Positions 9,289 to 64,000 of a stretch of 64,000 nucleotides of DNA are shown here, in pieces. The stretch is from Stieleria magnilauensis (GTDB lineage: Bacteria > Planctomycetota > Planctomycetia > Pirellulales > Pirellulaceae): positions 470,394-534,393 of the forward strand of contig CP036432.1 of assembly GCA_007753675.1 (NCBI GenBank). Reading direction: 5' to 3'. The position numbers and the translations under genes were made by a program. The notes beneath the pieces were generated by a model. It saw nothing but the letters and a program-made list of their open reading frames with translations, did no database searches and was not told the DNA's origin. The stretch's first letter is position 1. Each line of letters opens with the position of its first letter.

Positions 9289-10995
9289 TTAACCTGACAG
9301 TTTGAAGTAAACTTCTTCGATGGACGTGACGCCCTGTTGGGCGAGGTCCAGTCCCATCGTGGCCAGATCCACCATCCCTTCGGAGCAGGCGATGCTACGG
9401 AGGGTGCTGCCGGGCATGCCGGATTCGATGGCATGCTCCAGTTGAGGCGTCACGACCATGATTTCAAAGATCGGGGCGCGTCCGGAGTATCCGGTTCCGC
9501 CACACTGCTCACAGCCGACCGCTTCAAAGAATTTGCCGTTCAGATCGAGCCCCGCAGGGATGTCACGGCCTTGATAGATCAGTTCTACCAGTGACCGGTT
9601 GAGCTGACACTCGCGTTTGCAATGCTCACACAGTCGTCGCAGCAGACGCTGTGCGATCGAAGCGACCAACGCCCCGGCGATTTTAAAGTTGTCGAGTCCC
9701 AAATCGCTCAGCCGGGCAACGGTCCCGACCGCGTCGTTGGTGTGCAGCGTGCTGATCAGCAAGTGCCCGGTCAGCGAAGCTTGGACGGCTGTCGTGGCGG
9801 TTTCGTGATCGCGAATTTCTCCGACCAGAATCACGTCCGGGTCCTGTCTCATCAAGTACTTCAGTCCGTTGGCGAATCCCATACCGAATTCGTTGTTGGC
9901 ATGAACCTGATTGATTCCCGGTAGTCGAAACTCGACGGGGTCTTCGATCGTGGAGATGTTTTTCGACGCCGAGTCCATGCTGCACAGCATGGAATACATC
10001 GTCGTCGTTTTTCCGGAGCCCGTCGGCCCGGTCATCACGATCATTCCGTGGGGGCGGTCGAGCAATTGTTTGACGGTTGCCAGTTGACGCTCTTGCATTC
10101 CGAGCAGCGAGAAATCGAACGTCTTGCTCGATTCATCGAGCACCCGCATGACGACTTTTTCCCCACGGACACAGGGGATGCAGCTGACTCGAAAACTGGC
10201 GCGGGTCTCTCCATCTTGGATCGTCAAGTTTCCGTCCTGGGGACGTCGTTTTTCCGCGGTGTCCAGATCCGCAAGTACTTTCACCCGTCCGACCAAGGCG
10301 TCTTCGGAGTCTCCCGGCACCGTCATGATCTGATGCAACTGACCGTCGATGCGATAGCGGACACGCATCTGCGGCGAGTCCGGTTCCAAGTGAATGTCAC
10401 TCGCTTCGGCACGAACCGCCCCCATCAAGATCGCGTCGAGTAATCGCACCACCGGTGCGTCGCTGTCCTCCAGGTTCTCATCACATTGAACCGTCTCGGA
10501 GCCGCGTTCGTCTAGCTCTTGGATGCGGATGTCGACCGCGGTTTGTTTGGCTTTGATCTTGTCGTCGAATGCCGATTCAAGCATCCGATCGATGTCCGCT
10601 TCCAGACAGATCGCAGGTTCGACTTGATAGCCGGTCATCAGCTCGATTTCACTGATCGCCTCCATGTCGCTTGGATTGACCATCCCGAGCCGCAACACTT
10701 TGTTTTGAAGCTGGACCGGGGCAACCTTTCGTCGACGTGCAAAGGACTCGGGCAGCAATCGAACCAATTGCCCGTGTGTGACGTGTTCGTCAAACCCGCA
10801 AAACGGTAATTCGTATTGTTCGGCGAGCGCCTTGCCCAACTGTTCCCGCGTGACCAAGCCGCGTCTGAGCAAGAAGACGCCCAGTTGCAATCGCGTTTGA
10901 CGTTGGTCGACCAACGCGGTCTGCAACTGTTGTTCGGTGATGACACCGTGTTCCAGCAAGATGTCTCCGATGCGACGAATTTTCACGCTGCTCAT
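9289..10995 (-). CDS. Assembly ATPase (GspE/PilB family)
   Basis: Hexameric cytoplasmic ATPase that drives pseudopilus or pilus extension. The N-terminal MshEN/T2SSE-N domain (about 1-150) contains repeats beginning GDILLEHGVITEQQLQTALV. Walker A is GPTGSGKTT at 323-331, an aspartate-box region follows (EDPVEFRLPGINQV), and Walker B is DPDVILVGEIRD at about 385-396. A tetracysteine zinc site is present (C456/C459 and C495/C498), as in PilB and GspE. The ATG at the 4-bp overlap with the receiver gene is used; a longer frame would lie within that gene. Zinc site and MshEN domain fit an extension ATPase. No PilT-type retraction ATPase is present nearby. Confidence 0.95.
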   Translation of the reverse strand: MSSVKIRRIGDILLEHGVITEQQLQTALVDQRQTRLQLGVFLLRRGLVTREQLGKALAEQYELPFCGFDEHVTHGQLVRLLPESFARRRKVAPVQLQNKVLRLGMVNPSDMEAISEIELMTGYQVEPAICLEADIDRMLESAFDDKIKAKQTAVDIRIQELDERGSETVQCDENLEDSDAPVVRLLDAILMGAVRAEASDIHLEPDSPQMRVRYRIDGQLHQIMTVPGDSEDALVGRVKVLADLDTAEKRRPQDGNLTIQDGETRASFRVSCIPCVRGEKVVMRVLDESSKTFDFSLLGMQERQLATVKQLLDRPHGMIVMTGPTGSGKTTTMYSMLCSMDSASKNISTIEDPVEFRLPGINQVHANNEFGMGFANGLKYLMRQDPDVILVGEIRDHETATTAVQASLTGHLLISTLHTNDAVGTVARLSDLGLDNFKIAGALVASIAQRLLRRLCEHCKRECQLNRSLVELIYQGRDIPAGLDLNGKFFEAVGCEQCGGTGYSGRAPIFEIMVVTPQLEHAIESGMPGSTLRSIACSEGMVDLATMGLDLAQQGVTSIEEVYFKLSG

Positions 10996-11414
10996 GTTCG
11001 TTCTGCTGGATCTCGGAGGGTCGCGATCGGTTCCGAAACAAGGTTCAGCAACGCCACCAATTTTGACTCCAGAACGACCGGATCGTACGGCGAGATCACA
11101 AAGCTTTTCGCGCCTGCCTTGTAGGCATTTTCGACCTCGACCAAATCCCCGCGGCTGGAAATGCAAATGATCGGAATATGGCTGGTGCATTCGTCCGATG
11201 CGATTTTCTCCACCCAGCGAATTCCTTCACCCGTCTCCAGATCGAGATCGATCAAAACGGCATCCGGCAACCCTTCGGCGAGCGCCTCGGTCATCTCGTC
11301 GCTACTGCTGACTCCCGTCGTCCGCATCCCGAGCAGTTCGAGACGAAACACCGTGACCTCCAACACCGTTGGATGGGCGATGTAGACCAGGATTTTCTTT
11401 GCTTCTGAATTCAT
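10992..11414 (-). CDS. Atypical response-regulator receiver domain protein
   Basis: A stand-alone receiver-fold protein of 140 residues, first gene of the secretion/pilus operon. The phosphoacceptor-like Asp is D56 (AVLIDLDL) and S86/S87 occupy the Thr/Ser position. However, the acidic pair expected after the first strand is replaced by IAH at 12-14 (ILVYIAHPTV). The conserved Lys of the K-P motif is also replaced by Ser (VISPYDP, S108). Metal-dependent phosphorylation is thus doubtful, and a pseudo-receiver acting by protein contact is plausible. It overlaps the ATPase gene by 4 bp, suggesting it acts with that ATPase. No output domain and no partner histidine kinase are seen in the window. 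Confidence 0.8.
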   Translation of the reverse strand: MNSEAKKILVYIAHPTVLEVTVFRLELLGMRTTGVSSSDEMTEALAEGLPDAVLIDLDLETGEGIRWVEKIASDECTSHIPIICISSRGDLVEVENAYKAGAKSFVISPYDPVVLESKLVALLNLVSEPIATLRDPAERT

Positions 11415-11654
11415 TGCAGGCACGAAAGGACGCACTGACAGGGTGACACTGTCAAAACGCTAGGTTGCCGAAACCTTCGGTCAAACGCGGACCTGACAGT
11501 TGGCAAAGATCGCATAGAAGCCACCTGAGATCGCCCTCAAGCGAGGGAAAACCGTCAATTCGACATCCGAGTCGGCCGCCGCATGCGGGCGTGTCACAGA
11601 GTGCGACAGAGAGAAACGTTTTGATCCATCGACAAGTCCCGCGCTGTGCCACCC

Positions 11655-12482
11655 ATGCAACCCTTCGCATCGTCCATCCCCCGGCGTCACATCACGTCAG
11701 CCATCCTTGTGGCTCTGATCTGCGTCTCAGGCTGCGGACCGGAGCAGCCCACCGTGACGGCACAACCTGAAGCCGCTCTTCCGCTGTCCACCGTCGATCA
11801 CCGCGCGTCGGTTGGACCCGCGATCTCGGATGCCGATGCGGAGACATCCACAGAAGAACGCGTGACGGTGCAGCGGCGGCTGGATGAACCGCCGGTGGAG
11901 GTTGCACCTGAGGAACGTGACATCTCACCGATTCCCGATCACCTCAATTTCTTCCTGCCGCCGAAGACGGCGACCGTCAAAGTTGAGGTTGCGACGCCGG
12001 AGCCGGAGATTGAGCAGTCGACCGTGCGGTTGATCGGATTTGTGACGTCGGATTCAGATGATGAACGTGCCACCCTGGCGCTGCTGCGGGTCGGAGGAAA
12101 ACTGATTCCGATTCAAGCAGGTGAGGAGTTTGACGGCATTTCATTGCTTTCGACAGATATGAAAAACAGGTCCGTCGAAATCCGGCACCTGGAGGAGTGC
12201 ATGACGTTGGCGATGATGGACCAACCCATCGAAAACCCAGCGGTGCAAGGTCTCGCGGTGCAACCCGTTCGACGCCGTGCGACACCTCCCAAACCAACCA
12301 CGCGTCACTCAGCGGCGCGCGACGACTTTCATTTGTCAGATTCAGGATTTGCGACTCCGCCCGAGCCGGACCTGGGACTGGGGGCAATTCCCGCAGGCAT
12401 GGACCTCGAGCTTCCCGACGAACTGCGGCTGCCCGAGATGCCTGAATTGCCCGAGCTGGAGGGATTGCCGGCCTTGCCCTGA
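11655..12482 (+). CDS. PilP/GspC-like periplasmic lipoprotein
   Basis: The ATG is preferred to a GTG three codons upstream. A basic, hydrophobic N terminus ends in a lipobox (V-S-G-C, C27). A Pro/Glu-rich linker of about 90 residues follows, then a compact beta domain (STVRLIGFVTSDSDDERATL, then GGKLIPIQAGEEFDGISLLS, then SVEIRHLEECMTL). That pattern resembles the HR domain of PilP/GspC, which touches the secretin N0 domain. The C-terminal 70 residues are Pro/Leu-rich (ELPDELRLPEMPELPELEGL). Its position, divergent from the secretion operon by 240 bp, supports a role as the missing PilP component. The assignment is by pattern and context only. Confidence 0.65.
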   Translation: MQPFASSIPRRHITSAILVALICVSGCGPEQPTVTAQPEAALPLSTVDHRASVGPAISDADAETSTEERVTVQRRLDEPPVEVAPEERDISPIPDHLNFFLPPKTATVKVEVATPEPEIEQSTVRLIGFVTSDSDDERATLALLRVGGKLIPIQAGEEFDGISLLSTDMKNRSVEIRHLEECMTLAMMDQPIENPAVQGLAVQPVRRRATPPKPTTRHSAARDDFHLSDSGFATPPEPDLGLGAIPAGMDLELPDELRLPEMPELPELEGLPALP

Positions 12483-12534
12483 GTCGACTGAGCCGCCAGC
12501 GAATTCAACCACACCACTTCACCGGCCCAATCCC

Positions 12535-15500
12535 GTGACGCACTGCATTCCACGTTGTCGACCACTGATCCTGATCGGATTCCTCGCGCTGTTGCCGATC
12601 ACGACGGCCCAGGCGACCAACTATTACGTCCGCGCGACCGGCAACGACAGCAACCCGGGAACCCATCGCAACCAAGCGTTTCGCACCATCACCAAAGCGA
12701 CTTCCATCGCCGTACAGGGTGACGTTCTGTTTGTCGGTGCGGGAACCTATGACGAAAACGTCGTGATCAAGGGTGGCGGTGGCGCCACGTCAAAGGCTTG
12801 GTTGGTGCTGTACGCGGACCAAACGGGCACTTACACGGGCGACAAAGGATCGGTCGTCATCCGGCCCCAAGCCAAAACCTGGACGGTGCGGGTCTTCAAC
12901 ACCGGCAATGTCTTGTTTTACGGGTTCGACTTCGAACGCAATGCAGCACTCGACGGCAGAAGCTACGGCAGTCTGGTCACCAATACGACCGGACACGCAT
13001 ACTATCTGAACTGCAGTTTCAAGGATCTGACCTATGCCCTCCGTGATCTGGGCACGCACCAATTGCATGTCAGCGGATGCACGTTCACGGGCGTGACGTA
13101 CGGCGTCTACGCGACCAGGATTGAAGCTGCCAACGTCAGCAACTGCCAATTCATGGCGACACAATACGGATGCATCGGATACGACGGGAATTCCCTGGCG
13201 GTGACCGGTACGCGTTTTTCGGATCGGATCAACGCCAGCGATGCACCGACGAAAACACGTGGCGTCTACGCGGTCCGCACGGGACTGTCGGTATCCCGAT
13301 GTGAGTTCAACGGCAGCACGGTCGGTGTTTATGGGACGGCATTAAAATCAGCCGCCATCACGCGCAGCAACTTTCTGGACACGACGTCTTATGCGGCGCG
13401 TTGCGATGGCGAGTCGCTTTCGATGAGCCGCTGCACGATCAGGGGTGGGAACTATGGCGTCACGCTTGGAGACACGACCGGGAAATCAGCCGAGCTTTCT
13501 GATTTGCAAATCGAATCGATGCGCGTCGGCATCACCGCCCACCAAGGCGATTATGATTTCCGAAAAGTCACGTTGCGCGGGAACCGATTCGGTCTGTACC
13601 AACGGTCGGGAAACAAACGCTTGACGTTGTCGAAGAAGGATCGCATCGAGTTCGTCGACAACGATTACGCCATCTATTCCAACCACGCCAAGGGAGAGGA
13701 CGCCGAACTGATCCTGTCGGACGTGGACTTGAGCGGCAACAACCGAGGGCTGGTCAGCTATCGAACGCGCGTTTCGATCGACAAATGCACGTTTGGTGGC
13801 GATAAGATGGGCGCCTACCTGTCGGACAACCTGTCGGCCACCATTTCCGACAGCACATTCAACGGAAACCCCGCCGATGCCAACGCATGCACTTATGGGT
13901 TGTACGTCCGCTCGGACGACATTGAGGTCGAAAAGTGTCGTTTTGAAAACTCGCGATACGGTGTGATGGTCCACAACACCTCCGCAGCAGCTCCCGTTTT
14001 GAAGAAACTGACCTCGGAAGATCATACGGCCGCGGCGCTTTACATCCGTGGCGGCACTTGGACATATGACGGGGCCGACAAACATACGTTTCGCAATTGT
14101 CCCCGCGGCGTGATCGCCAACACGGTCAAGTGGACGATCAACGAGGTGACCACCAGCGATTCCTGCAAGTACCCGATCACGGACTACTACGGGGATTGCA
14201 CGGTCACCGACACGACCGCACAAGGTACGACCAGCGGTTTCTATGCTTACCAGTCGCAAGCCGTCAACATCGACGGGTTGGCGGTGGCGGATTGCGGTTC
14301 CTACGGCGTGGTGCTGAACGATTGTGCGAGCGTGCAAATCAACCGCTGTGTTGCCAATCGCAACGGTCACGGGATGTACGTCTACAGCAAACGAAACCTT
14401 CGCCCGGCGATCCGCGATTGCGAACTTTCCGGCAACACCGGATACGGCCTGCTGATGACAGGGGCAACGCTTGATCCGTCATCCACCGCCAATCTCGAGC
14501 TCAACAACAACCGTTACGGCCTGCGGGTGAACGATCAACCGTTGACGCTGCTGCCGGCGATGAATGTCGCAATGACCGGCAACCAGTATGGCGTGCTGTG
14601 CCAAAAAGAGAAGCTGACCATGACGGGCATCGAGCTTGCCGGCAACGAAATCGCCGCGTATTGCTCCCGCGGCAGCCTGTCGATTGCGCAATGTTCATTG
14701 ACCGCGACGCGTTACGGTGTTTTGGGTTACCTGGACGGTGAGTGCGATATCAGTGACTCCCGTTTCAATGACGCTGCCTATGGCATTTATCTGCGAGCCG
14801 TTGGAACGACGAATCTGCCGGTCCAGATCTCCAAAGCCGTCGTGACGGGGGCAACCGGTGCTGGGGTTTATGTCCGTGGCGATCCGGCGAACCCGTTGCC
14901 CGTGTCGATCCGCAACAGCAGCATTCGGAACGGCCGACAGGGACTCGTGTTGAATCACACCCGAGCGACGGTGGACACGTTGAATGTCGCGGATTTGTCC
15001 AGCATCGGCATTTACCAAGCAAGTGGATCGGCGGCGATCCATGGCTGCGCGTTCGCGCGGCTGACAGGCAGTTGGGCGATCCTGGCCAGGGGCGACCGTT
15101 GTGACGTCTCTCAATCCACGATCCGTACGGGGCGATACGGAATCGCATTGCAGACCGATCGGGGCGCGGTCACCAACACGGTGATCGCGGGAACGGACTA
15201 CGGGATCTACTTGCGGGCCACCGACGCGGATTACTCGATCGTGCACACGACCGTCGCCGCTGCGAAGTTTTACGGGTTGATTCGTTACGAGGGCTCGACC
15301 ACGATCCGCAATTCGATTTTCGACGCGGCGTACTTTGGCCTCTACAACGCCCGGCCCGGCGGCACGTTCGACCACCAGTACAACGTGGTTCATGCGTTGC
15401 GTCGCCCTTACGTCAACAGTTCCGTGGGAATCGGCGAGACCAATGACCCGCCGCTGTTTGCCGATCCAGCGACGGGCGATTTTCATTTGTCGATGGGTTC

Positions 15501-56175: not shown

Positions 56176-56838
56176 CTACACGTCCAAGTCGTCCAGCTGG
56201 TCGATCAGACTGTCCAAGTTTTCGTCCGACCGGGGTGACGCAGCGGCGACCGGAGCCGGTTGGCGAGGTGCTGCGGTAACCGGGACCGGACGTGCCGTGG
56301 TTTCCGCGGGCTTGTTCGCAGCGGGTTTAATTGTCGTCGAGCCGCCCGATCCCAGGGCACCGAGCGAAACGGTTTTGACACTCAACGAAGCCCTCAGGCG
56401 ATCCAGCTCCGCGATGATCTTTTGAACGTCGTTGTGTTTGGTCAGATCGAATAGAAACAGACGTCGCGGTGACTGTCCCGGGGCGAACGGTCCGTCGGGA
56501 TCGAGCTGATGCGGACAACGCGATCCATGAAACTCGATCGCCGCGAGCACGTCTAGCATCTCCGGTTCCGATCGCCAATCGAGAACTGCCGAGGGCACCG
56601 TGATGGAGTCCAAGGTCATGCGGTCGGTGGAATCGTCGGCGAGGGAATCGAATCGCCCCACCAGGGTCAAGTCGAGGCCGGCTCGTCCGATCAGGTGACC
56701 GACCAAGGATTCCGCAAGATTGGCAGCCGAGGCGGGCGGGTTTTGGACAAGGATGACGGGCAGTCGCATCGGTGCAGGCCGTTGGGGAGCGGGGGCGGAA
56801 TCGGGAGGGCGTCTGGAGCGGTGCGTCCAACGTGGCAT
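56176..56838 (-). CDS. Hypothetical protein paired with a P-loop ATPase
   Basis: Family not recognised. A 220-residue protein with an ATG start; a second ATG 23 codons on (MRLPVILVQNPPASAANLAE) is equally plausible and would remove a Pro/Arg-rich start. Residues about 24-145 look folded, with alternating hydrophobic strands and helices (AGLDLTLVGRFDSL, then RRLFLFDLTKHNDVQKIIAE). Residues about 165-205 are a Pro/Ala linker, and the end ENLDSLIDQLDDLDV is a short acidic amphipathic helix suited to binding another protein. Same strand, 49 bp downstream of the ATPase gene, so an operon is likely. Confidence 0.6.
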   Translation of the reverse strand: MPRWTHRSRRPPDSAPAPQRPAPMRLPVILVQNPPASAANLAESLVGHLIGRAGLDLTLVGRFDSLADDSTDRMTLDSITVPSAVLDWRSEPEMLDVLAAIEFHGSRCPHQLDPDGPFAPGQSPRRLFLFDLTKHNDVQKIIAELDRLRASLSVKTVSLGALGSGGSTTIKPAANKPAETTARPVPVTAAPRQPAPVAAASPRSDENLDSLIDQLDDLDV

Positions 56839-56887
56839 GCTGGGAGCGATACGGTTGTAGCGTTACCGTCGCAGCGAGTGGTCTACG

Positions 56888-57586
56888 TCAGCTGTGGAAT
56901 TTCAGTTCGTGCGCGTGGGCGTCTTCGACCACATCATACATCTCGAACCAGAGTTCCCTGACATTGGTCGTCGGCGTCAGTCGTCGGTCTTTCAAATGGC
57001 CATCGATCATCTTGCGAAGCTCGTACGGCGAATCGGATAGCAGATCGTCTGCCAGGGAGCGAATCAATTTGGAGTTCGCGCGAGTTTCGTGGAGCACCGT
57101 CCATCCGGGCATGCGATAGTGGCACGTCGCGAGCAAGGTCAGCTTTCGATTCGAGGCTATTCGTGCGACGCGCAGCCTGGACAGGTGTGTCATCTGTTCC
57201 CAGCCATCGACGACCAACAGCCCGTCTTGGGGAAGTTCCATCAGCCCGTCGCGAATTCGCTTGCCGGCACGAAACCGTTCCCCCAAACGTTTCCAAAGGC
57301 TCATCGAGGGATCATTATTGAGCTGATGGAACGCGACCTGGGGAAAGCTCCGTTGAAGCTTGGGCAGAAAGGTATGCAGCAGCGTCGATTTTCCGGTCCC
57401 GTGGGGGCCGACGATCAGCGCACGGCGGGAGCTTTTCAGCTTCGCCAGCAGCGATTCCAGATGCGAGTCCACGTTGTGTGGACTGGTCGCGTTGGCTCCG
57501 TGGGAGAACCGATACACGACCTGTGACGGCGCAATGAACGACGTCGAAAATGGATTCGTGGGCTGGAATTCAAACGACGACTTCAA
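56888..57586 (-). CDS. P-loop ATPase of unknown role
   Basis: A 232-residue ATPase, TTG start with GAGAGAG nearby. Walker A is GPHGTGKST at about residue 60 within RRALIVGPHGTGKSTLLHTF, and Walker B is GLLVVDGWEQM near residue 125, with Asp but a Gly-Trp-Glu after it. There is no AAA+ arginine finger or lid that I can assign. The closest general type is a small AAA/ExeA-like or STAND-type ATPase. Aromatic N terminus (FEFQPTNPFSTSFIAPSQVV). It is the only plausible partner of the hypothetical protein just downstream. Confidence 0.65.
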   Translation of the reverse strand: MKSSFEFQPTNPFSTSFIAPSQVVYRFSHGANATSPHNVDSHLESLLAKLKSSRRALIVGPHGTGKSTLLHTFLPKLQRSFPQVAFHQLNNDPSMSLWKRLGERFRAGKRIRDGLMELPQDGLLVVDGWEQMTHLSRLRVARIASNRKLTLLATCHYRMPGWTVLHETRANSKLIRSLADDLLSDSPYELRKMIDGHLKDRRLTPTTNVRELWFEMYDVVEDAHAHELKFHS

Positions 57587-57991
57587 GGAACGCTCTCTCG
57601 ATCGTTTTCGGGAACAAGCTGATTTGCGGCCATCGGTCGGAAATCACAGAGACCGAACGGCCCCACACACCGATCTCCATCCGGATCAGTATAGCCGAAA
57701 CGCGATGGTGAGCGTCTATGGGCTCAAATCCAATCCCGCTAAGTGAAGCGCCGTTGCCTGAGGTTGTGTCCCGTAGGCCCCACGCTAAACGGTTGATGAT
57801 CGTCTGGCATCAGCCGGTTCGCGCCAGCGTCCGGGCCTTCTTTTTGATGGTCAATGGACCCTACAGGGCTGGAATCAGCAGGCCGCTCGCCAAGGTGTGC
57901 CCTCCCCCCCTTTTCGCTACCCAAGTGGCCTACCCCGCCCAGCCGCCGTCAATTCCCGGATTAAGCTTGACCTTGTCTTTTGCTACAGCCT
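57587..57991. other. 405-bp divergent gap with no recognised gene
   Basis: No coding frame is convincing. A TTGACC hexamer at 57967-57972 lies about 18 bases before TATGGA at 57991-57996. If these formed a promoter the transcript would begin at or near the second in-frame ATG of the next gene. This is weak. The segment around 57750-57850 is GC-rich and repeat-like (GTAGGCCCCACGCTAAACGG), similar in style to planctomycete intergenic repeats, but no second copy lies in this window. Confidence 0.3.
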
Positions 57992-59830
57992 ATGGAAGGG
58001 TCGATGGACTCGACCCCGACAATTCCGGTACAGCGTCCCAGTCGATGGGACGAACCGCTCGACGCATCCATGACGGATGCCGATGTCGCATGGCTGCGCA
58101 CGCGCGGCCCCTTCAATCAGATGGATCAATCCGCGTTTCCCCGTGCGACACCGCTGTCGGGAATCTTGCGCTACGATTGCCGGCTACATCGCGTCGAGCC
58201 CGGCGAGGTGATCGTCCGCGAAGGCGATTACGGAAACAGTGCATTTTTGCTGATCACCGGCAACGTGCGGGTGCTGGTCGATTCGTTGACCGATCAGCAA
58301 CTCGGTCGCCAACCGACTCGCTCGATCGGCTGGGGCGAAGCCTTGTCGCGGTTCTTGCGACGTTCGCGCCACCCGGAAACGCGAACCCCTGAGCAGGTCA
58401 GCATCAATGCCGCTGCGGGCGGCCACCAGGCGATTCGCCAGGTCGATGATCGCCCCGCAATCTTCTTGCAGGACATCGAGGGCGTGCTGCGGCGACACGA
58501 GAGTGTTTCGCTGGGGCCTGGGGAGTTGTTCGGTGAAGTGGCGGCGATGTATCGCTCGCCACGAACGGCCACCGTGATCGCCGAAACCGAAGCGGCGTTG
58601 GTCGAGATCCGTTGGCAGGGATTGCGCATCCTGCGTCGCGATCGACGTTTCGCCGACACCTTGGAACAGCATTATCGCCGGCATTGGTTGCCCATCCACC
58701 TTCGTGAAATCCCATTGTTGCGTTACCTGCCGGAAGAAAACATGCAACGGGTGATCGAGGCGACGGAGCTTCGGTCGTACGGCCGGATGGAATGGAACGC
58801 CGATTACAAGAAGACCCGTAAGCTGCATCCGGCAGACCAAATTGCAGCGGAACCCTTGGTCGTCGATCAAGGGCAACTGCCGACCGAGTTGATTGTGGTG
58901 CGGAGCGGTTTCGGGCGGATGTGCGTGCGTCACGGTGCGGCGCATCGAACCGTCGCCTATCTAGGCAAGGGCCACTTATTCGGAATCGATGAGATCGCCT
59001 ACAACGCAATGCGTCCCGAATCGATGCGTCCGATCCATTACCAACACTCGCTGCGCGCCGTCGGTTTCTTGGACGCACTTTCGATCCCAATCGAAGTGTT
59101 TGCGGCGGAGGTGTTGCCGCATATCCGCAAATCCGAGTTGCCCGAGAGCGCCCGGTCGCTGCAGAAATCCTTCACCGAAAAACGATCGGATCGGCGTCGC
59201 GTTCGCAGCGACCAGCGGAGCGAAGCGGCGGATCGTTTTTCGCCAGATCCGACGCAAGACATTGAGCACGCTGCCGGTGTCAGTTTCGAGTCGACGAGCT
59301 TGTTGGAGTTTATCGTTCAGCATCGTTTGAACAACGGTCGCGAAGCAATGGTGATTGATTTGCATCGCTGCACCCGCTGTGACGATTGTGTCAAAGCCTG
59401 CGCGGACGTCCACGACGGCAATCCGCGATTCGTGCGACAGGGGATCGTTCACGATCGTTTGCAGTTCGTTCAAGCCTGCATGCATTGCAGTGATCCGGTT
59501 TGCATGATCGGCTGTCCGACCGGAGCGATCACGCGTGATCAGACGACGGGCGTGGTTTCCATCCACGATCCGATCTGCGTCGGTTGCGGGGTTTGCGCTG
59601 CAGCATGCCCCTACGAGAACATCGCGATGGCGGAGGTCGTCGATCGCAAGGGGCGACCCTACGTCGATGAGAAAAGCGGTAACGCGATTCGCAAAGCGGC
59701 CAAATGCGATCAGTGCAGTGGGCTGCCGTCGGGACCGGCGTGCGCGGCCGCCTGCCCGCACGATGCGCTCGTCCGAATCGACTTAAGCGAATCGCCACCG
59801 CTTTCTGATTGGCTGGAAAAACGGAGCTAG
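57992..59830 (+). CDS. Cyclic-nucleotide-binding protein fused to a four-cluster ferredoxin
   Basis: A 612-residue soluble fusion. Two CAP_ED-like domains come first, at about residues 45-225 and 235-395. The first has REGDYGNSAFLLITGNVRVL and the phosphate-binding-cassette pattern GELFGEVAAMYRSPRTATVI; the second is less canonical. The C-terminal 170 residues are a polyferredoxin with four Cys sets: CTRCDDCVKAC, CMHCSDPVCMIGC, CVGCGVCAAAC and CDQCSGLPSGPACAAAC. This four-cluster pattern is that of CISM beta subunits such as NrfC and DmsB. It would pass electrons between a membrane quinone or cytochrome unit and a catalytic partner, with the cNMP domains as a switch. First gene of a three-gene unit. 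Confidence 0.85.
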   Translation: MEGSMDSTPTIPVQRPSRWDEPLDASMTDADVAWLRTRGPFNQMDQSAFPRATPLSGILRYDCRLHRVEPGEVIVREGDYGNSAFLLITGNVRVLVDSLTDQQLGRQPTRSIGWGEALSRFLRRSRHPETRTPEQVSINAAAGGHQAIRQVDDRPAIFLQDIEGVLRRHESVSLGPGELFGEVAAMYRSPRTATVIAETEAALVEIRWQGLRILRRDRRFADTLEQHYRRHWLPIHLREIPLLRYLPEENMQRVIEATELRSYGRMEWNADYKKTRKLHPADQIAAEPLVVDQGQLPTELIVVRSGFGRMCVRHGAAHRTVAYLGKGHLFGIDEIAYNAMRPESMRPIHYQHSLRAVGFLDALSIPIEVFAAEVLPHIRKSELPESARSLQKSFTEKRSDRRRVRSDQRSEAADRFSPDPTQDIEHAAGVSFESTSLLEFIVQHRLNNGREAMVIDLHRCTRCDDCVKACADVHDGNPRFVRQGIVHDRLQFVQACMHCSDPVCMIGCPTGAITRDQTTGVVSIHDPICVGCGVCAAACPYENIAMAEVVDRKGRPYVDEKSGNAIRKAAKCDQCSGLPSGPACAAACPHDALVRIDLSESPPLSDWLEKRS

Positions 59831-60052
59831 TGCTTTGTCAACTCTCAAACTCAAGGGATTCAGCAGCCGTTGGTGTCCAGCCGTTAGGCGTTCCCATTCG
59901 CTGCGGAGCAGCGACACCGGGCGGCGAAAGCCTGCACACCAACACGCATGCCCGTACCATTCATGTTTGACCCCTTTGCCGCTCGTTAGAGCGATGGTGG
60001 GCAACCTCAACATGGGTCGTAGTGATTCGTGGACGCCAGGAGAGTTGCAAGC

Positions 60053-60883
60053 GTGAATCGTTCGCAGGGTCCCCGTTTGAGAACACGTCGCCTCGTCGCT
60101 TTGTCGGTGACGCTGGTCGTGATCGCGATCTTTTGGGGAATCACCCGCTGGGAAACATCACGTCTGGGGATGCCGGCCTTCTTCACCGGTTTCACCCTGT
60201 TGGCGGGACTGTTCCTGTTGATGCTGCTGGGCGTGCGTCGTCGTTTGCCGTTTTGGCCTCTGGGCAGCGTCAGCACCTGGACGCAGATCCATCTTTACGT
60301 GGGGATTTTCACGACCGCAATCTATGTGCTTCACGTTCCGGCGCTGATCGCCGGTGGAGTCCTGGAGGGTTGTTTGTCGATCATCTTCCTGATGGTCACC
60401 GCGAGCGGTTTTTATGGGATCTATGCCAGTCGCACGCTGCCGAAAAAACTCACGGCGGTCGAAGGCCAACATCGTTTCGATCGCATCGATTGGGTGCGGA
60501 ATCAAATCGCCGCCGCAGCCGACAAGGCCTGCCGCCAAATCAGCGAAACGTCGGCCAAGCAGGTGCTGGAAACGTTCTACCAACAGGCTTTGTCACCGTT
60601 TTTTGTCAGCCGTCCGACACTCGCCTACGTGATCGCGCCCAACGGAAATCGCCGCCGCAGGTTACTCGGTGACCTGAAAGAATTGGATCGCTATCTGGAG
60701 GAGGACGGGCGACGCGTTGCGGGGCAGTTGGCGGCATTGGTGCGTCGCCGCGACGATCTGGATTATCAATTTGCCCTGCAGCTGCGACTGCGTTGTTGGG
60801 TGGTGTTTCATTCGCTCCTGTCGCTGGTGTTGTTGGCTGTGTCGCTGATTCACATGGTGATCGTGTTGCGGCTGGTGGGTTGA
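60053..60883 (+). CDS. Membrane protein with di-haem cytochrome b-like His pairs
   Basis: A 276-residue membrane protein. The GTG is chosen because AGGAGA lies about nine bases upstream; an earlier GTG is possible. Five hydrophobic helices are predicted. H80 and H94 lie in one helix (IHLYVGIFTTAIYVLHVP) and H253 and H267 in another (FHSLLSLVLLAVSLIHMVI). Both pairs are 14 residues apart, the spacing used to hold two stacked b haems in cytochrome b and related quinol-oxidising subunits. A large, charged cytoplasmic or periplasmic loop (about 130-245) separates them. I do not recognise a family name. Neighbours supply iron-sulphur and c-type haem partners. Confidence 0.7.
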   Translation: MNRSQGPRLRTRRLVALSVTLVVIAIFWGITRWETSRLGMPAFFTGFTLLAGLFLLMLLGVRRRLPFWPLGSVSTWTQIHLYVGIFTTAIYVLHVPALIAGGVLEGCLSIIFLMVTASGFYGIYASRTLPKKLTAVEGQHRFDRIDWVRNQIAAAADKACRQISETSAKQVLETFYQQALSPFFVSRPTLAYVIAPNGNRRRRLLGDLKELDRYLEEDGRRVAGQLAALVRRRDDLDYQFALQLRLRCWVVFHSLLSLVLLAVSLIHMVIVLRLVG

Positions 60884-60904
60884 GGACGAGGCGCAAAGCA
60901 AGTC

Positions 60905-62941
60905 ATGCGAAGAGACAATCTTGAAATCCCGCAACCGCCCATCAACGATCGCCCCGGCGATTCGTGGATGCCGGCCGTCGACGGGGCTGGATCGGACGGC
61001 GCCGCCCGCGTTCGCACCTGGTCGGGGCGACGCCGTCGCTGGACCATCGTTTTCTTCACGTGCGTTTTGCTGGGTGCGCTGGCAACGTTGGCGATGATGC
61101 CCGCGGAGCAATTGTTCAAGCCAGGGGAATTGTCGACACCGCACGCCCAGATTCTGGCGGGTTCCGTTTCCGGCGAAAAGTGCGCCGCGTGTCATCATCA
61201 AGCTGCGTTTTCATTGGCTGCGTGGTTTCATTCGGCAAGTGATTCGCATGCCGCTGATTCGCATGCCGCTGATTCGCATGCCGCTGTGACGCAGTCGGAT
61301 CTGTGTATGGATTGCCATCACCGTACGATCAACGCGAACCTGGCTCTCGCGGCACACAATCTGCCGGTTTCGGTTCGCGATCAGATGACCGAGACGATTC
61401 GGCTGGCTTCCAAGCGTTCTGACGCCGCCAGCACCGGCTTGTTGCCTCGATGGATCCCCGATGCCGCCGTTGACCAAAACGATGTCGCTTGTCGAGCCTG
61501 CCATCAAGAGCACCATGGCGCCGAGGCAGACTTGTTGTCGCTGTCAAACAACCAATGCCAAACCTGTCACAGCGAACGCTTCGGGGCGTTTGCCGATTCA
61601 CATCCGGATTGGGAGGGTTGGCCGTATGGCCGTGGCGGAGAACTCTCGTTCAATCATGCCACTCACCAGCAGACACATTTCCCGTCGTGGAAGTCGGGGG
61701 CGGAAACGTTCGACTGCTTGATCTGCCATCCCGCGGGACCGACGGGTGAACTGGTTCGCGTGGCAAGCTACGAAACCAGCTGCCAAACGTGTCACGATGA
61801 AGCGATGAACGTGCGGGCAGGAAAGGGCATCGATTTTGTTGCTCTGCCATCCTTGCCGCGAAACGCCTTGAACAACGTCAGCGGTTGGCCGGAGGGCGCG
61901 ACCGGGTTCGCCGACGGAGTGATCTCGCCGCTTGCCGAGTTGATGTTGCGCGCCGATCCGGCGGTGACCAAAATCGTGCGTAGTGTCCCGGGGGGCGATG
62001 TCAGTCGCTTGTCGATCGAAGACCCGCAAACCGATGAGACGCTTGCGCGTCTGGCGAACGGTTATCAAAGGTTGATTGACGACGTCGGCAGACGGGGCCA
62101 ATCGGCGATCCAAGAGCGGCTGTTGCAATTGGGGATTTCTCCCGGTCCCTTCCAACCCGTTCTGCGTTCTCTGTCGCCGCAGTTGATCGAGTCGGCCGGC
62201 CAGAAATGGTTCGCGCAGACCGACTTGACCGGTACACAAAGTGCCACGATCACACGACCGCGACCAAAGATTCGATTGGTCATCGCGGACGATGATGACT
62301 TGTTGGGAGCCGAGCTATTGGGATCAAGCCTGCTGGGCGAGCCGGGCGATGAAGACGCATTGTTGGACGATCCGCTGCTGGAGGATCCGCTTCAGCAGGA
62401 TCCATTGGCCGGTTCAAACGAACGCTCGTCAACGGTCGTTTCCGCTGTGCCACCATCCGACCTGGTGCAAGTCGGCGGCTGGTATCGCAATGATCAACGA
62501 TTTGCGATCAGCTATCGAGGCAACGGGCACGGCGATCCCGTGATGGTCGGCATGATCGAAACGTTTGCGCAGTTAGCCGAACACGATCCGCTGAAGCAGC
62601 GTTTCTTCGACGGACCCTTTGTCGCCGCGTGTGTATCCTGCCATCCCGGTGCGACCGCGATTCCCGCTTCTTGGCGGGCGAAACGTTTAGTGGGACAACG
62701 CAGCGAGTTCACCAAGTTTTCGCATCGCCCCCATCTGAGTGTCTCCGCGCTCGGTGATTGCAGTCACTGTCACCAAGTTCGTGATCGACAGACGATGCCG
62801 GACCATGAATTCGTCTTTGCCGGGTCGGAGTTCAAAGCGTTGGAGCGTGAATCTTGCGCGGCGTGCCATCACGCCAACGCTGCCGGTGAGGATTGCACCC
62901 AGTGTCACCGCTACCACATCAGCGATGGCGGTCTTCGATAG
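60905..62941 (+). CDS. Membrane-anchored decahaem cytochrome c
   Basis: A 678-residue protein with a single N-terminal membrane anchor (about residues 47-65) and ten CxxCH haem-attachment motifs: CAACH, CMDCH, CRACH, CQTCH, CLICH, CQTCH, CVSCH, CSHCH, CAACH and CTQCH. Six occur in the first 300 residues and four in the last 110. Between them lies a haem-free insert, including a very acidic Leu-rich stretch (DDDDLLGAELLGSSLLGE) and later LLDDPLLEDPLQQDPL. Many extra His residues could be distal ligands. It would be exported by Sec and receive haem in the periplasm, and fits an electron carrier for the upstream membrane and iron-sulphur proteins. Confidence 0.93.
   Translation: MRRDNLEIPQPPINDRPGDSWMPAVDGAGSDGAARVRTWSGRRRRWTIVFFTCVLLGALATLAMMPAEQLFKPGELSTPHAQILAGSVSGEKCAACHHQAAFSLAAWFHSASDSHAADSHAADSHAAVTQSDLCMDCHHRTINANLALAAHNLPVSVRDQMTETIRLASKRSDAASTGLLPRWIPDAAVDQNDVACRACHQEHHGAEADLLSLSNNQCQTCHSERFGAFADSHPDWEGWPYGRGGELSFNHATHQQTHFPSWKSGAETFDCLICHPAGPTGELVRVASYETSCQTCHDEAMNVRAGKGIDFVALPSLPRNALNNVSGWPEGATGFADGVISPLAELMLRADPAVTKIVRSVPGGDVSRLSIEDPQTDETLARLANGYQRLIDDVGRRGQSAIQERLLQLGISPGPFQPVLRSLSPQLIESAGQKWFAQTDLTGTQSATITRPRPKIRLVIADDDDLLGAELLGSSLLGEPGDEDALLDDPLLEDPLQQDPLAGSNERSSTVVSAVPPSDLVQVGGWYRNDQRFAISYRGNGHGDPVMVGMIETFAQLAEHDPLKQRFFDGPFVAACVSCHPGATAIPASWRAKRLVGQRSEFTKFSHRPHLSVSALGDCSHCHQVRDRQTMPDHEFVFAGSEFKALERESCAACHHANAAGEDCTQCHRYHISDGGLR
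61241..61285 (+). repeat. Three exact 15-bp tandem repeats inside the cytochrome gene
   Basis: GATTCGCATGCCGCT is repeated three times and encodes three DSHAA units between the first and second haem motifs. The copies are identical at DNA level, so the repeat is probably recent and may vary between strains. Extra His residues could affect haem ligation. Confidence 0.85.
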
Positions 62942-63025
62942 TGGCGTAAGCTTCCAGCTTGCGCGTTCGGCTGCGACCATCCATCCCATCCGGGATAGAT
63001 GAAGATGGGGCGGTCACAGCACGTC

Positions 63026-63057
63026 TTAACGCGAGGCCCGGTTAACGCGAGGCCCGG
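63026..63057. repeat. 16-bp tandem duplication at a gene end
   Basis: TTAACGCGAGGCCCGG occurs twice in direct succession. The right copy encodes the last residues and stop codon of the minus-strand Pro/Cys-rich gene; the left copy lies just after it. This looks like a small recent duplication with no effect on the protein. Confidence 0.8.
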
Positions 63058-64000
63058 TAGGGTGCCAACACACGTCGGCTGGTCATCGGACGCAGTTGGA
63101 TCGGTTCTTCGTGACTGACCGGTCGCAATCCGCTGCCCACCGCTCGTTCGGGCTTTTGGGGCAATTGCGTCGGTGTCTTGGGCGCGGGGTAAACCGGTTG
63201 GTAGGTCTTCGCGATCATTCGGCTGGCACGTTCCAGCATCGGCCGGATGGAACCGTATTGCCGTCGCAAACGAGCAGCGTCCTCCTCGAAGGGATCATCC
63301 AAGTCCTCCAGATCATCCAACGCATCAAAGATCGAACCTTCTTTTTTCGGTTGCGTTGGGGGTTCGACCGGGTTCGGCGTGGGCGGCATGTCCGGTAGCG
63401 AGGGAGGCGTGAACTGCGGATCGCTGAGAGGATCCGGCGAATCGGAGCCCGGTTCGGGAAGGGGCATCGCAGGCGTTGCCGGGCGCGGCGTCGGAACCGG
63501 TTCGGCAGGGATCGTCGGCGGTGGAGTGAGTGTGGGGCGGCCCGTTGGTTCCGCTGCTGGTGGGACGGCGGGGGTCTCTTGACGGCGCGACGATTGAGTG
63601 GGGTCGGGGGGGGCCGGCGCGGCAGGCTTGGGTGTTTCAGGATTGGGCGTTGCTTGCTTCGGAGCAGCTTGTCTCGGCGCCGGCGCCAGTGGCGGGACGG
63701 TTGGCAATCGAGGCGCCGCGGTCGAGGGTGGCGCCAAGGGTTTGGTTGCCGCCGGTGGGTTGGGGATTTGCAACACCGGCGGAGTGGTTGATTCGAGGTC
63801 CGTCATCCAGGGGGCCGAATCACATCCGCCATCGCAGCCGTGCGTCGTGCATCCGGCGTTGCCGCAACGGTCCAGTCCCAGCAGCTTCTCGATGCCGCCG
63901 GCGACCGTGTCGAGTGTCTTGTAGATCGGGTTGGATGTCCGCCCCGTTTGTCCGCAGCTGCCACAGTCGCACGGGCCTTGATTGCCACTGGCGGAATAGG
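63042..64000 (-). CDS. Pro-rich, Cys-rich exported protein (5' end beyond the window)
   Basis: Family not recognised. The frame is open to the right edge, so the ATG at 63806 is probably internal. Upstream of it the frame reads GPCDCGSCGQTGRTSNPIYK, then a helix-like GGIEKLLGLDRCGNAGCTTH, then GCDGGCDSAPW: a cysteine-dense module typical of secreted planctomycete proteins. The middle 150 residues are Pro/Ala/Thr low-complexity, then PKKEGSIFDALDDLEDLDD, and a basic C terminus. The C-terminal part lacks any enzyme motif. It may be a cell-surface or envelope structural protein. It is convergent to the decahaem cytochrome gene with about 100 bp between. Confidence 0.65.
   Translation of the reverse strand, partial: YSASGNQGPCDCGSCGQTGRTSNPIYKTLDTVAGGIEKLLGLDRCGNAGCTTHGCDGGCDSAPWMTDLESTTPPVLQIPNPPAATKPLAPPSTAAPRLPTVPPLAPAPRQAAPKQATPNPETPKPAAPAPPDPTQSSRRQETPAVPPAAEPTGRPTLTPPPTIPAEPVPTPRPATPAMPLPEPGSDSPDPLSDPQFTPPSLPDMPPTPNPVEPPTQPKKEGSIFDALDDLEDLDDPFEEDAARLRRQYGSIRPMLERASRMIAKTYQPVYPAPKTPTQLPQKPERAVGSGLRPVSHEEPIQLRPMTSRRVLAPYRASR

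Follow-up and report, generated by a model that had tools for sequence, protein, structure and literature searches.

The window, a stretch of 64,000 nucleotides from the genome of Stieleria magnilauensis (10.77 Mb, single contig), includes three genes located on the same strand (+, 57992-62941) that are one unit. Gene 1 (57992-59830, +) encodes tandem cyclic nucleotide (cNMP)-binding (CNB) domains joined to a ferredoxin with four [4Fe-4S] sites, gene 2 (60029-60883, +) a five-helix membrane protein of 284 amino acids, and gene 3 (60905-62941, +) a decahaem cytochrome c of 678 amino acids. The three proteins probably form a transmembrane electron-transfer complex in which a cyclic nucleotide would regulate the cytoplasmic entry subunit. 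A first-pass annotation, made from the nucleotide sequence without database searches, had picked out these three same-strand genes and read them as a cyclic-nucleotide-gated redox complex. Open reading frames (ORFs), Pfam matches and motifs agree with that gene description, and the reading as a whole is supported; haem binding, complex formation, gating, ligand and direction of electron flow are the components that we infer.

Conservation and distribution of the three genes

Relatives of genes 1 and 2 were searched for in 60 genomes, that of the window included, at E <= 1e-30. Gene 2 relatives were found in 24 genomes and gene 1 relatives in 27, and all 24 are among the 27. In the three extra genomes (G050, G057 and G058; E values from 7.7e-32 to 5.3e-35) only the Fe-S part of gene 1 was matched, and the weaker gene 2 matches present in five genomes (3.1e-12 to 1.8e-7) come from other locus types. 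At 25 loci selected through gene 2 (L037-L061), the order gene 1, gene 2, multihaem ORF (at least six CxxCH motifs) was found in all 25, two of them ending at a contig end. When the window locus was compared with 13 three-gene loci, the three genes were kept in 13/13 and any flanking gene in at most five. Genes 1-3 are therefore one unit: close relatives of genes 1 and 2 occur in the same 24 genomes, the three genes keep a fixed order while their flanks drift away, and the synteny that the first-pass reading counted on is borne out. The idea that the three genes are chance neighbours was rejected by the co-occurrence, the order and the decay of the flanks, and its probability is negligible. 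The ratios of non-synonymous to synonymous substitutions (dN/dS) against five close relatives were low for gene 1 (0.047-0.076), gene 2 (0.064-0.102) and gene 3 (0.175-0.252), which indicates purifying selection on all three. Two genes upstream of the unit in the window (56176-57586, -) are common to five of the 13 three-gene loci; they encode a 220-amino-acid protein and a 232-amino-acid AAA-type ATPase that has only sub-cut-off matches. A promoter and terminator scan of 57500-63200 found no sigma-70-like site, and the terminator-like sites did not exceed those of shuffled sequences, so that the scan was uninformative.

A broad scan of contig collections with gene 1, from which the best 80 of 562 matches were kept, showed the same arrangement. 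The phyla given for these contigs are those of the submitters' titles, and the contigs are possibly misbinned. Gene 2 follows gene 1 at 78 of the 80 loci, the other two stopping at a contig edge (at L147, gene 2 is split over two frames). A multihaem ORF, again with at least six CxxCH motifs, comes next in 71 of the 78; six of the seven loci without a called cytochrome reach the contig end, and in the seventh, L213, the cytochrome frame overlaps gene 2. The matches are titled Planctomycetota, Verrucomicrobiota, Alpha- and Gammaproteobacteria, Mariprofundus, SAR324, Poribacteria and Nitrospinae, and the named hosts include Hwanghaeella grinnelliae, Ferruginivarius sediminum and 'Ca. Uabimicrobium amorphum'. 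Five operon-carrying loci (L191, L162, L177, L215 and L217) are titled as metagenome-assembled genomes (MAGs) of Klebsiella pneumoniae or Akkermansia muciniphila and group with the Verrucomicrobiota rows; the Klebsiella title is probably wrong.

Features of the sensor, the membrane protein and the cytochrome

The gene 1 reading frame is open from a TTG at 57980 and has an ATG at 57992, the start adopted on first pass. Its product, taken as a cytoplasmic sensor and electron-input subunit, matched the Pfam family cNMP_binding (PF00027) over three stretches with 70.4 bits (cut-off 27.5), and several Fer4 families exceeded their cut-offs. The first domain, CNB-A (about residues 62-217; 58163-58630, +), is split by an insert of about 75 residues and was matched by PF00027 in two pieces (profile positions 2-33 and 43-84). 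Conservation over 44 aligned rows located its phosphate-binding cassette, GELFGEVAAMYRSPRTAT (58520-58573, +), which reads FGE...PRTAT: F184, G185 and E186 are kept in 44/44 rows and R195 in 43/44, and position 198 is T or S in all of them. The second domain, CNB-B (about residues 243-385; 58706-59134, +), was recognized by row conservation and by the strands of an AlphaFold model. It keeps E338 in 43/44 rows and R359 in 42/44; the Glu and Arg expected to bind phosphate, complete in CNB-A, are found there only in part. The phosphate loop of CNB-B is divergent, and the two domains are therefore not equivalent. Of the two CAP_ED-like domains annotated on first pass, the family assignment stands, as PF00027 is over its cut-off, and CNB-A is canonical and keeps the phosphate-binding Glu and Arg; the divergent loop of CNB-B departs from that description.

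The AlphaFold model of gene 1 has a mean predicted local distance difference test (pLDDT) score of 74.6, with the CNB parts mostly at 78-96 outside the insert. Foldseek returned as top matches the tandem-CNB regulatory subunits of protein kinases A and G (PKA and PKG), matched domain by domain (best E 2.3e-16, TM 0.42 by target, root-mean-square deviation (rmsd) 13.2). Gene 1 shares with these subunits the tandem CNB fold and the canonical CNB-A cassette. It differs from PKA in being joined to a ferredoxin, in the insert of about 75 residues within CNB-A, in the divergent CNB-B loop and in the placement of the domains, to which the rmsd of 13.2 corresponds.

The ferredoxin region (about residues 455-604; 59342-59791, +), delimited by NCBIfam and PDB similarity, has four [4Fe-4S] sites at Cys 464/467/470/474, 500/503/508/512, 533/536/539/543 and 576/579/588/592. 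These 16 Cys are invariant in the 44 rows, in agreement with the four clusters proposed earlier. The top NCBIfam matches of the region, PadI, NrfC and DsrO, are all far under their cut-offs, and none of the 25 gene 1 matches listed out of 69 was over its cut-off (the best were 61.7 bits against 700 and 60.3 against 377.6). The PDB matches were HycB3, HycB4 and an NrfC protein. Four [4Fe-4S] sites and NCBIfam/PDB similarity are common to gene 1 and to subunits of the complex iron-sulfur molybdoenzyme (CISM) type, such as NrfC, HybA, DsrO, HmcB and DmsB. Unlike them, gene 1 adds CNB domains and has no NrfD-like or molybdoenzyme partner visible in the window: neither a CISM-type membrane subunit (NrfD/NarI-like) nor a catalytic subunit was present among the scanned window ORFs beside the unit.

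Gene 2, identified as an ORF and by its structure model, is a putative di-haem b wire. No Pfam family matched it above the cut-off. Two His pairs, H88/H102 (60290-60334, +) and H261/H275 (60809-60853, +), lie on predicted transmembrane helices, the members of each pair being 14 residues apart (H-x13-H). Both His of the first helix are kept in 77/77 rows, and those of the second in 77/77 and 76/77; the exception for H275 is L192, where the sequence is broken by unreadable letters. The remaining His, H148, is kept in 1/77 rows. The two pairs had been noticed on first pass, and their position, equally spaced, on two predicted transmembrane helices agrees with the role assigned to them then. The model (mean pLDDT 93.2, predicted TM score 0.85) has helices at residues 14-44, 49-72, 81-102 and 111-143, a long final helix at 225-283, and a helical domain at about 140-250 taken as cytoplasmic. 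The charge pattern places the N-terminus and the helical domain on the cytoplasmic side of the membrane and the C-terminus on the outer side. Because of this topology, H88 and H261 are predicted to lie towards the cytoplasm and H102 and H275 towards the periplasm, an arrangement that would fit two stacked bis-His b haems.

Two other identities were considered for gene 2 and rejected. A quinone anchor of the NrfD/NarI type was discarded since there is no such Pfam match at E <= 1. Of the connection with CISM and quinone modules drawn on first pass, then, the four-cluster subunit holds and the link to the quinone pool is unsupported. A ferric reductase (PF01794) was discarded since the match, over helices 2-3, reached 16.6 bits against a cut-off of 28; in a profile alignment by hhalign to a ferric reductase encoded in the same genome, the match probability was 2.2%. 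Foldseek of gene 2 against the PDB gave nothing at E <= 0.001, a negative that carries little weight in the case of a helical bundle. The unit points to a putative di-haem membrane family for which no Pfam model scores above its cut-off.

Gene 3 has ten CxxCH motifs, the number given earlier, and Pfam matches of the Cytochrome_C7 and MtrC/MtrF-like types. From its hydropathy and sequence it is taken as periplasmic, and a single hydrophobic segment near the N-terminus (about 61043-61096) is a putative anchor. No NCBIfam model was over its cut-off for gene 2 or gene 3 among the matches listed.

Several known systems resemble parts of this arrangement. Proteins of the FRD superfamily (ferric reductases and NADPH oxidases) have H-x13-H on helices, and they share with the pathway proposed for the unit the scheme NAD(P)H-flavin adenine dinucleotide (FAD) to b haems to the outside, and with gene 2 a weak Pfam similarity; the unit has an extra Fe-S chain and c haems. 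In Hmc/Tmc-type complexes, a di-haem b membrane part is joined to a multihaem c part. CbcL, MtrH and MtoC combine the same two parts, as genes 2-3 would, and CbcL is described as one chain with six helices of the HydC/FdnI type, proposed to act on quinol (PMC6295460). Gene 2, unlike CbcL, is a separate protein with five helices in its 284 amino acids and no HydC/FdnI-type Pfam match, and the unit also has the cNMP/Fe-S subunit, which in relatives is joined by an NAD(P)H flavoprotein. Among described conduits, CymA, CbcL and ImcH come nearest; quinol is their known or proposed substrate according to the same article, in the text of which the terms 'cyclic nucleotide' and 'iron-sulfur' are both absent (PMC6295460). 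No description of a cNMP/Fe-S/decahaem unit was found in the open-licence PMC literature among the matches listed, in line with the first-pass remark that no named system has this exact architecture.

Redox partners and direction of electron flow

Partner genes were counted at loci with at least 3.5 kb of upstream sequence. An FAD/NAD/[2Fe-2S] flavoprotein is encoded within 9 kb at 58 of 61 broad-scan loci, upstream and on the same strand at 54, and a gene for a c554-like tetrahaem cytochrome lies just upstream at 34/61. At 15 planctomycete loci from the phylum search, the flavoprotein was found in 11 and the tetrahaem gene in 13; at 21 loci of relatives, each was found in six. Examples of these genes were assigned by Pfam. 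In contigs from beyond the window's clade, with titles of six phyla, the upstream region encodes an NAD(P)H flavoprotein and often a c554-like tetrahaem protein as well. The first-pass statement that the terminal partner is missing is accurate beside the unit in the window's clade and fails elsewhere, where this NAD(P)H-FAD-[2Fe-2S] reductase is present.

In the pathway that we propose, electrons would enter the four [4Fe-4S] clusters of the gene 1 protein. In the fuller operons they would pass from NAD(P)H to the adjacent FAD/[2Fe-2S] flavoprotein and then to these clusters, and in the window's clade they would have to come from another ferredoxin or reductase. The membrane would be crossed through two bis-His b haems on the H-x13-H helices of gene 2, and the anchored decahaem cytochrome would be the exit, passing electrons on to carriers in the periplasm, c554-like or other.

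Other inputs to the same wire were found. In the loci designated type II (L066, L067 and L126), the membrane protein and the decahaem cytochrome occur with a NuoE-NuoF fusion and a NuoG-like/cNMP/4Fe-4S protein. These relatives share with the NADH module of complex I (NuoEFG) the NuoE-NuoF fusion and the NuoG-like N-terminus of the cNMP/Fe-S protein; their output, in contrast to complex I, is the membrane protein and the decahaem cytochrome, and no pumping subunits were seen in the loci looked at. In type III (L131:9761-12391), an FHA-FAD/NAD-Fer2 (FNR) reductase is fused to the gene 2 membrane domain beside a decahaem gene, and in type IV (L137:8278-10233 and L138:9561-11558) the fused enzyme is a Pyr_redox_2-BFD reductase, also beside a decahaem gene. 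The H-x13-H pairs are readable in the fused proteins, as they are in a gene 2 paralogue of the window genome. The case for electron donation to the wire by pyridine-nucleotide-linked flavoproteins is made most strongly by these fusions of reductase and gene 2.

Two further clusters of the window genome, at about 3.67 Mb (L228:5503-12230) and 5.81 Mb (L229:5942-13987), encode a [2Fe-2S] reductase of the FNR type, a heptahaem cytochrome and a paralogue of gene 2 with both H-x13-H pairs. The paralogue of the first cluster aligns to gene 2 with an hhalign probability of 96%, and a ferric reductase and a Na/H exchanger were also detected in that cluster by Pfam; the second was assigned from ORFs and search matches only. 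These clusters are taken as another version of the same wire.

Additional proteins accompany some operons. Upstream at L144 (2885-6538), and likewise at similar loci, there is a pentahaem cytochrome (688 amino acids, weak ExtKL-like similarity), of which a relative lies within 9.5 kb at 22/61 broad-scan loci; a 488-amino-acid protein without Pfam or NCBIfam match is also encoded upstream at L144. These proteins are possible candidates for a terminal enzyme. Pfam placed FHA domains in the flavoprotein of L102 (5899-7512) and, at L114, in the relative of gene 1 (10806-14882); at L102 and L103, gene 1 is extended at its N-terminus by a stretch that is FHA-like by eye. The FHA parts may add phospho-threonine control.

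The window itself belongs to the lineage without these partners. A quick maximum-likelihood tree was built with 115 of 123 gene 1 rows (four duplicates and rows under 450 amino acids were omitted) and rooted at the midpoint. The partner-less form appeared as one clade of 18 rows, all from the window's family and with the window among them (Shimodaira-Hasegawa-like approximate likelihood-ratio test (SH-aLRT) 90), three of which have too little upstream sequence to judge partners. Whether the partners were lost or never gained in this clade hinges on the uncertain root of the tree. The window genome has six matches to the flavoprotein of one relative, four of them weaker than the two best; the latter (32-33% identity) belong to the two further clusters described above, each of which has a gene 2-like and a heptahaem gene of its own, and through them no clear flavoprotein donor for the unit was found. 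Pentahaem and c554-like relatives are located elsewhere in this genome than the unit. Such a setting would also fit a three-gene form repurposed for a task unlike that of the five-gene operons, for example redox sensing only: the rows make a single clade, no flavoprotein or tetrahaem gene was found near those that could be judged, and both partners are missing at 15/21 relatives' loci. However, the 16 Cys, the four His and the ten haem motifs are all kept under purifying selection, and we consider repurposing unlikely.

The outward direction of the proposed pathway must be weighed against inward flow, in which periplasmic multihaem cytochromes would feed the wire and the Fe-S/flavoprotein end would reduce NAD(P)+ or ferredoxin under cNMP control. 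Many named hosts belong to organotroph groups, and the usual activity of NuoEF and FNR modules is NAD(P)H oxidation, which speaks against it. However, the architecture fixes no direction, and among the named matches are one MAG each of Mariprofundus and Acidiferrobacter, from groups that oxidise iron or sulfur. Conduits of the CbcL/MtoC type are, moreover, discussed as bidirectional (PMC6295460). Inward flow is a tentative alternative to which we give some weight.

Cyclases near the loci and proposed gating

If a cyclic nucleotide controls the outward-conducting complex, its source would be a class III cyclase. The association was evaluated at 58 of 73 planctomycete loci, with an expectation calculated from each genome's cyclase total and rounded size; 13 of the 15 loci left out are in genomes that have no cyclase count and two have a gene 2 score under 95. 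A cyclase counted as nearby on a phmmer match (E < 1e-9), and genome totals came from PF00211. A class III cyclase was found within 10 kb, inside the fetched stretch, at 14 of the 58 loci against 0.58 expected, an enrichment of about 24-fold; in 200,000 simulations the count never rose above six. The 15 omitted loci hold no nearby cyclase, which makes 14/73 overall. Collapsing the loci into 42 genus-like groups gave 9.08 observed against 0.51 expected. Cyclases were near 9/25 loci that are of the window's type but have partners (a single genus accounts for four of these nine), 5/17 loci of other types and 13 of the 80 broad-scan loci. One to five class III cyclase genes are present in 49 of the 58 counted genomes. 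All 11 locus-near cyclases checked by Pfam pass PF00211, some of them with FHA, GAF, CHASE2 or 7TMR-DISM domains. The proximity of cyclases to the relatives' loci speaks independently in favour of cNMP control. In the window genome there are two class III cyclases; both are encoded away from the unit, and both resemble locus-linked ones over about 580-660 amino acids (31-35% identity). For the system overall the link to cyclases is thus strong, and for the window it is indirect.

These data also bear on a conduit of the same composition that is not gated, in which the CNB domains would serve structure or dimerisation and would have no working ligand site. The phosphate loop of CNB-B and the same-fold proteins titled cAMP-independent could be read in this way, as could the 16 loci of the window's clade, none of which has a cyclase nearby. 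On the other side are the nearly invariant FGE and Arg of CNB-A, in 44 rows titled from several phyla, and the enrichment of cyclases across the loci. An ungated conduit seems to us quite unlikely. In the gated complex, a cyclic nucleotide made by class III cyclases would bind CNB-A and shift the CNB pair, as in PKA regulatory subunits, and this shift would dock the Fe-S chain on or off the membrane wire.

Several observations weigh against the gated, outward-conducting complex. Haem binding, nucleotide binding and electron transfer are predictions from sequence and models, and the sequence leaves the direction of electron flow unfixed. The Fe-S half of gene 1 was modelled poorly, with blocks of pLDDT of about 47-83. 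The regulatory subunits of the same fold among the structure matches include some titled cAMP-independent and some guanosine-bound, and these titles, with the divergence of CNB-B, mean that the ligand could be something else. Finally, the window's clade has no cyclase near any of its 16 tested loci and 15/21 relatives' loci have neither partner gene, so that both the donor and the link to cyclases are drawn from other lineages.

In bacteria, the known signalling roles of cAMP and cGMP are mainly transcriptional. The loci described here suggest respiratory-type complexes, distributed over about six phyla and fed by several inputs, in which cAMP or cGMP would act directly and fast on an electron-transfer protein and not via transcription, in effect a current gated by a second messenger; we regard the case for this wider proposal as evenly balanced. 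A PKA-like sensor fused to an Fe-S input, with cyclases nearby in separate lineages, would make post-translational control of electron export directly testable, and the three hosts named above are possible test organisms. The unit gives context to the decahaem cytochromes of Planctomycetota and Verrucomicrobiota and, if the proposal is correct, respiration in these bacteria would be switched directly by a second messenger.

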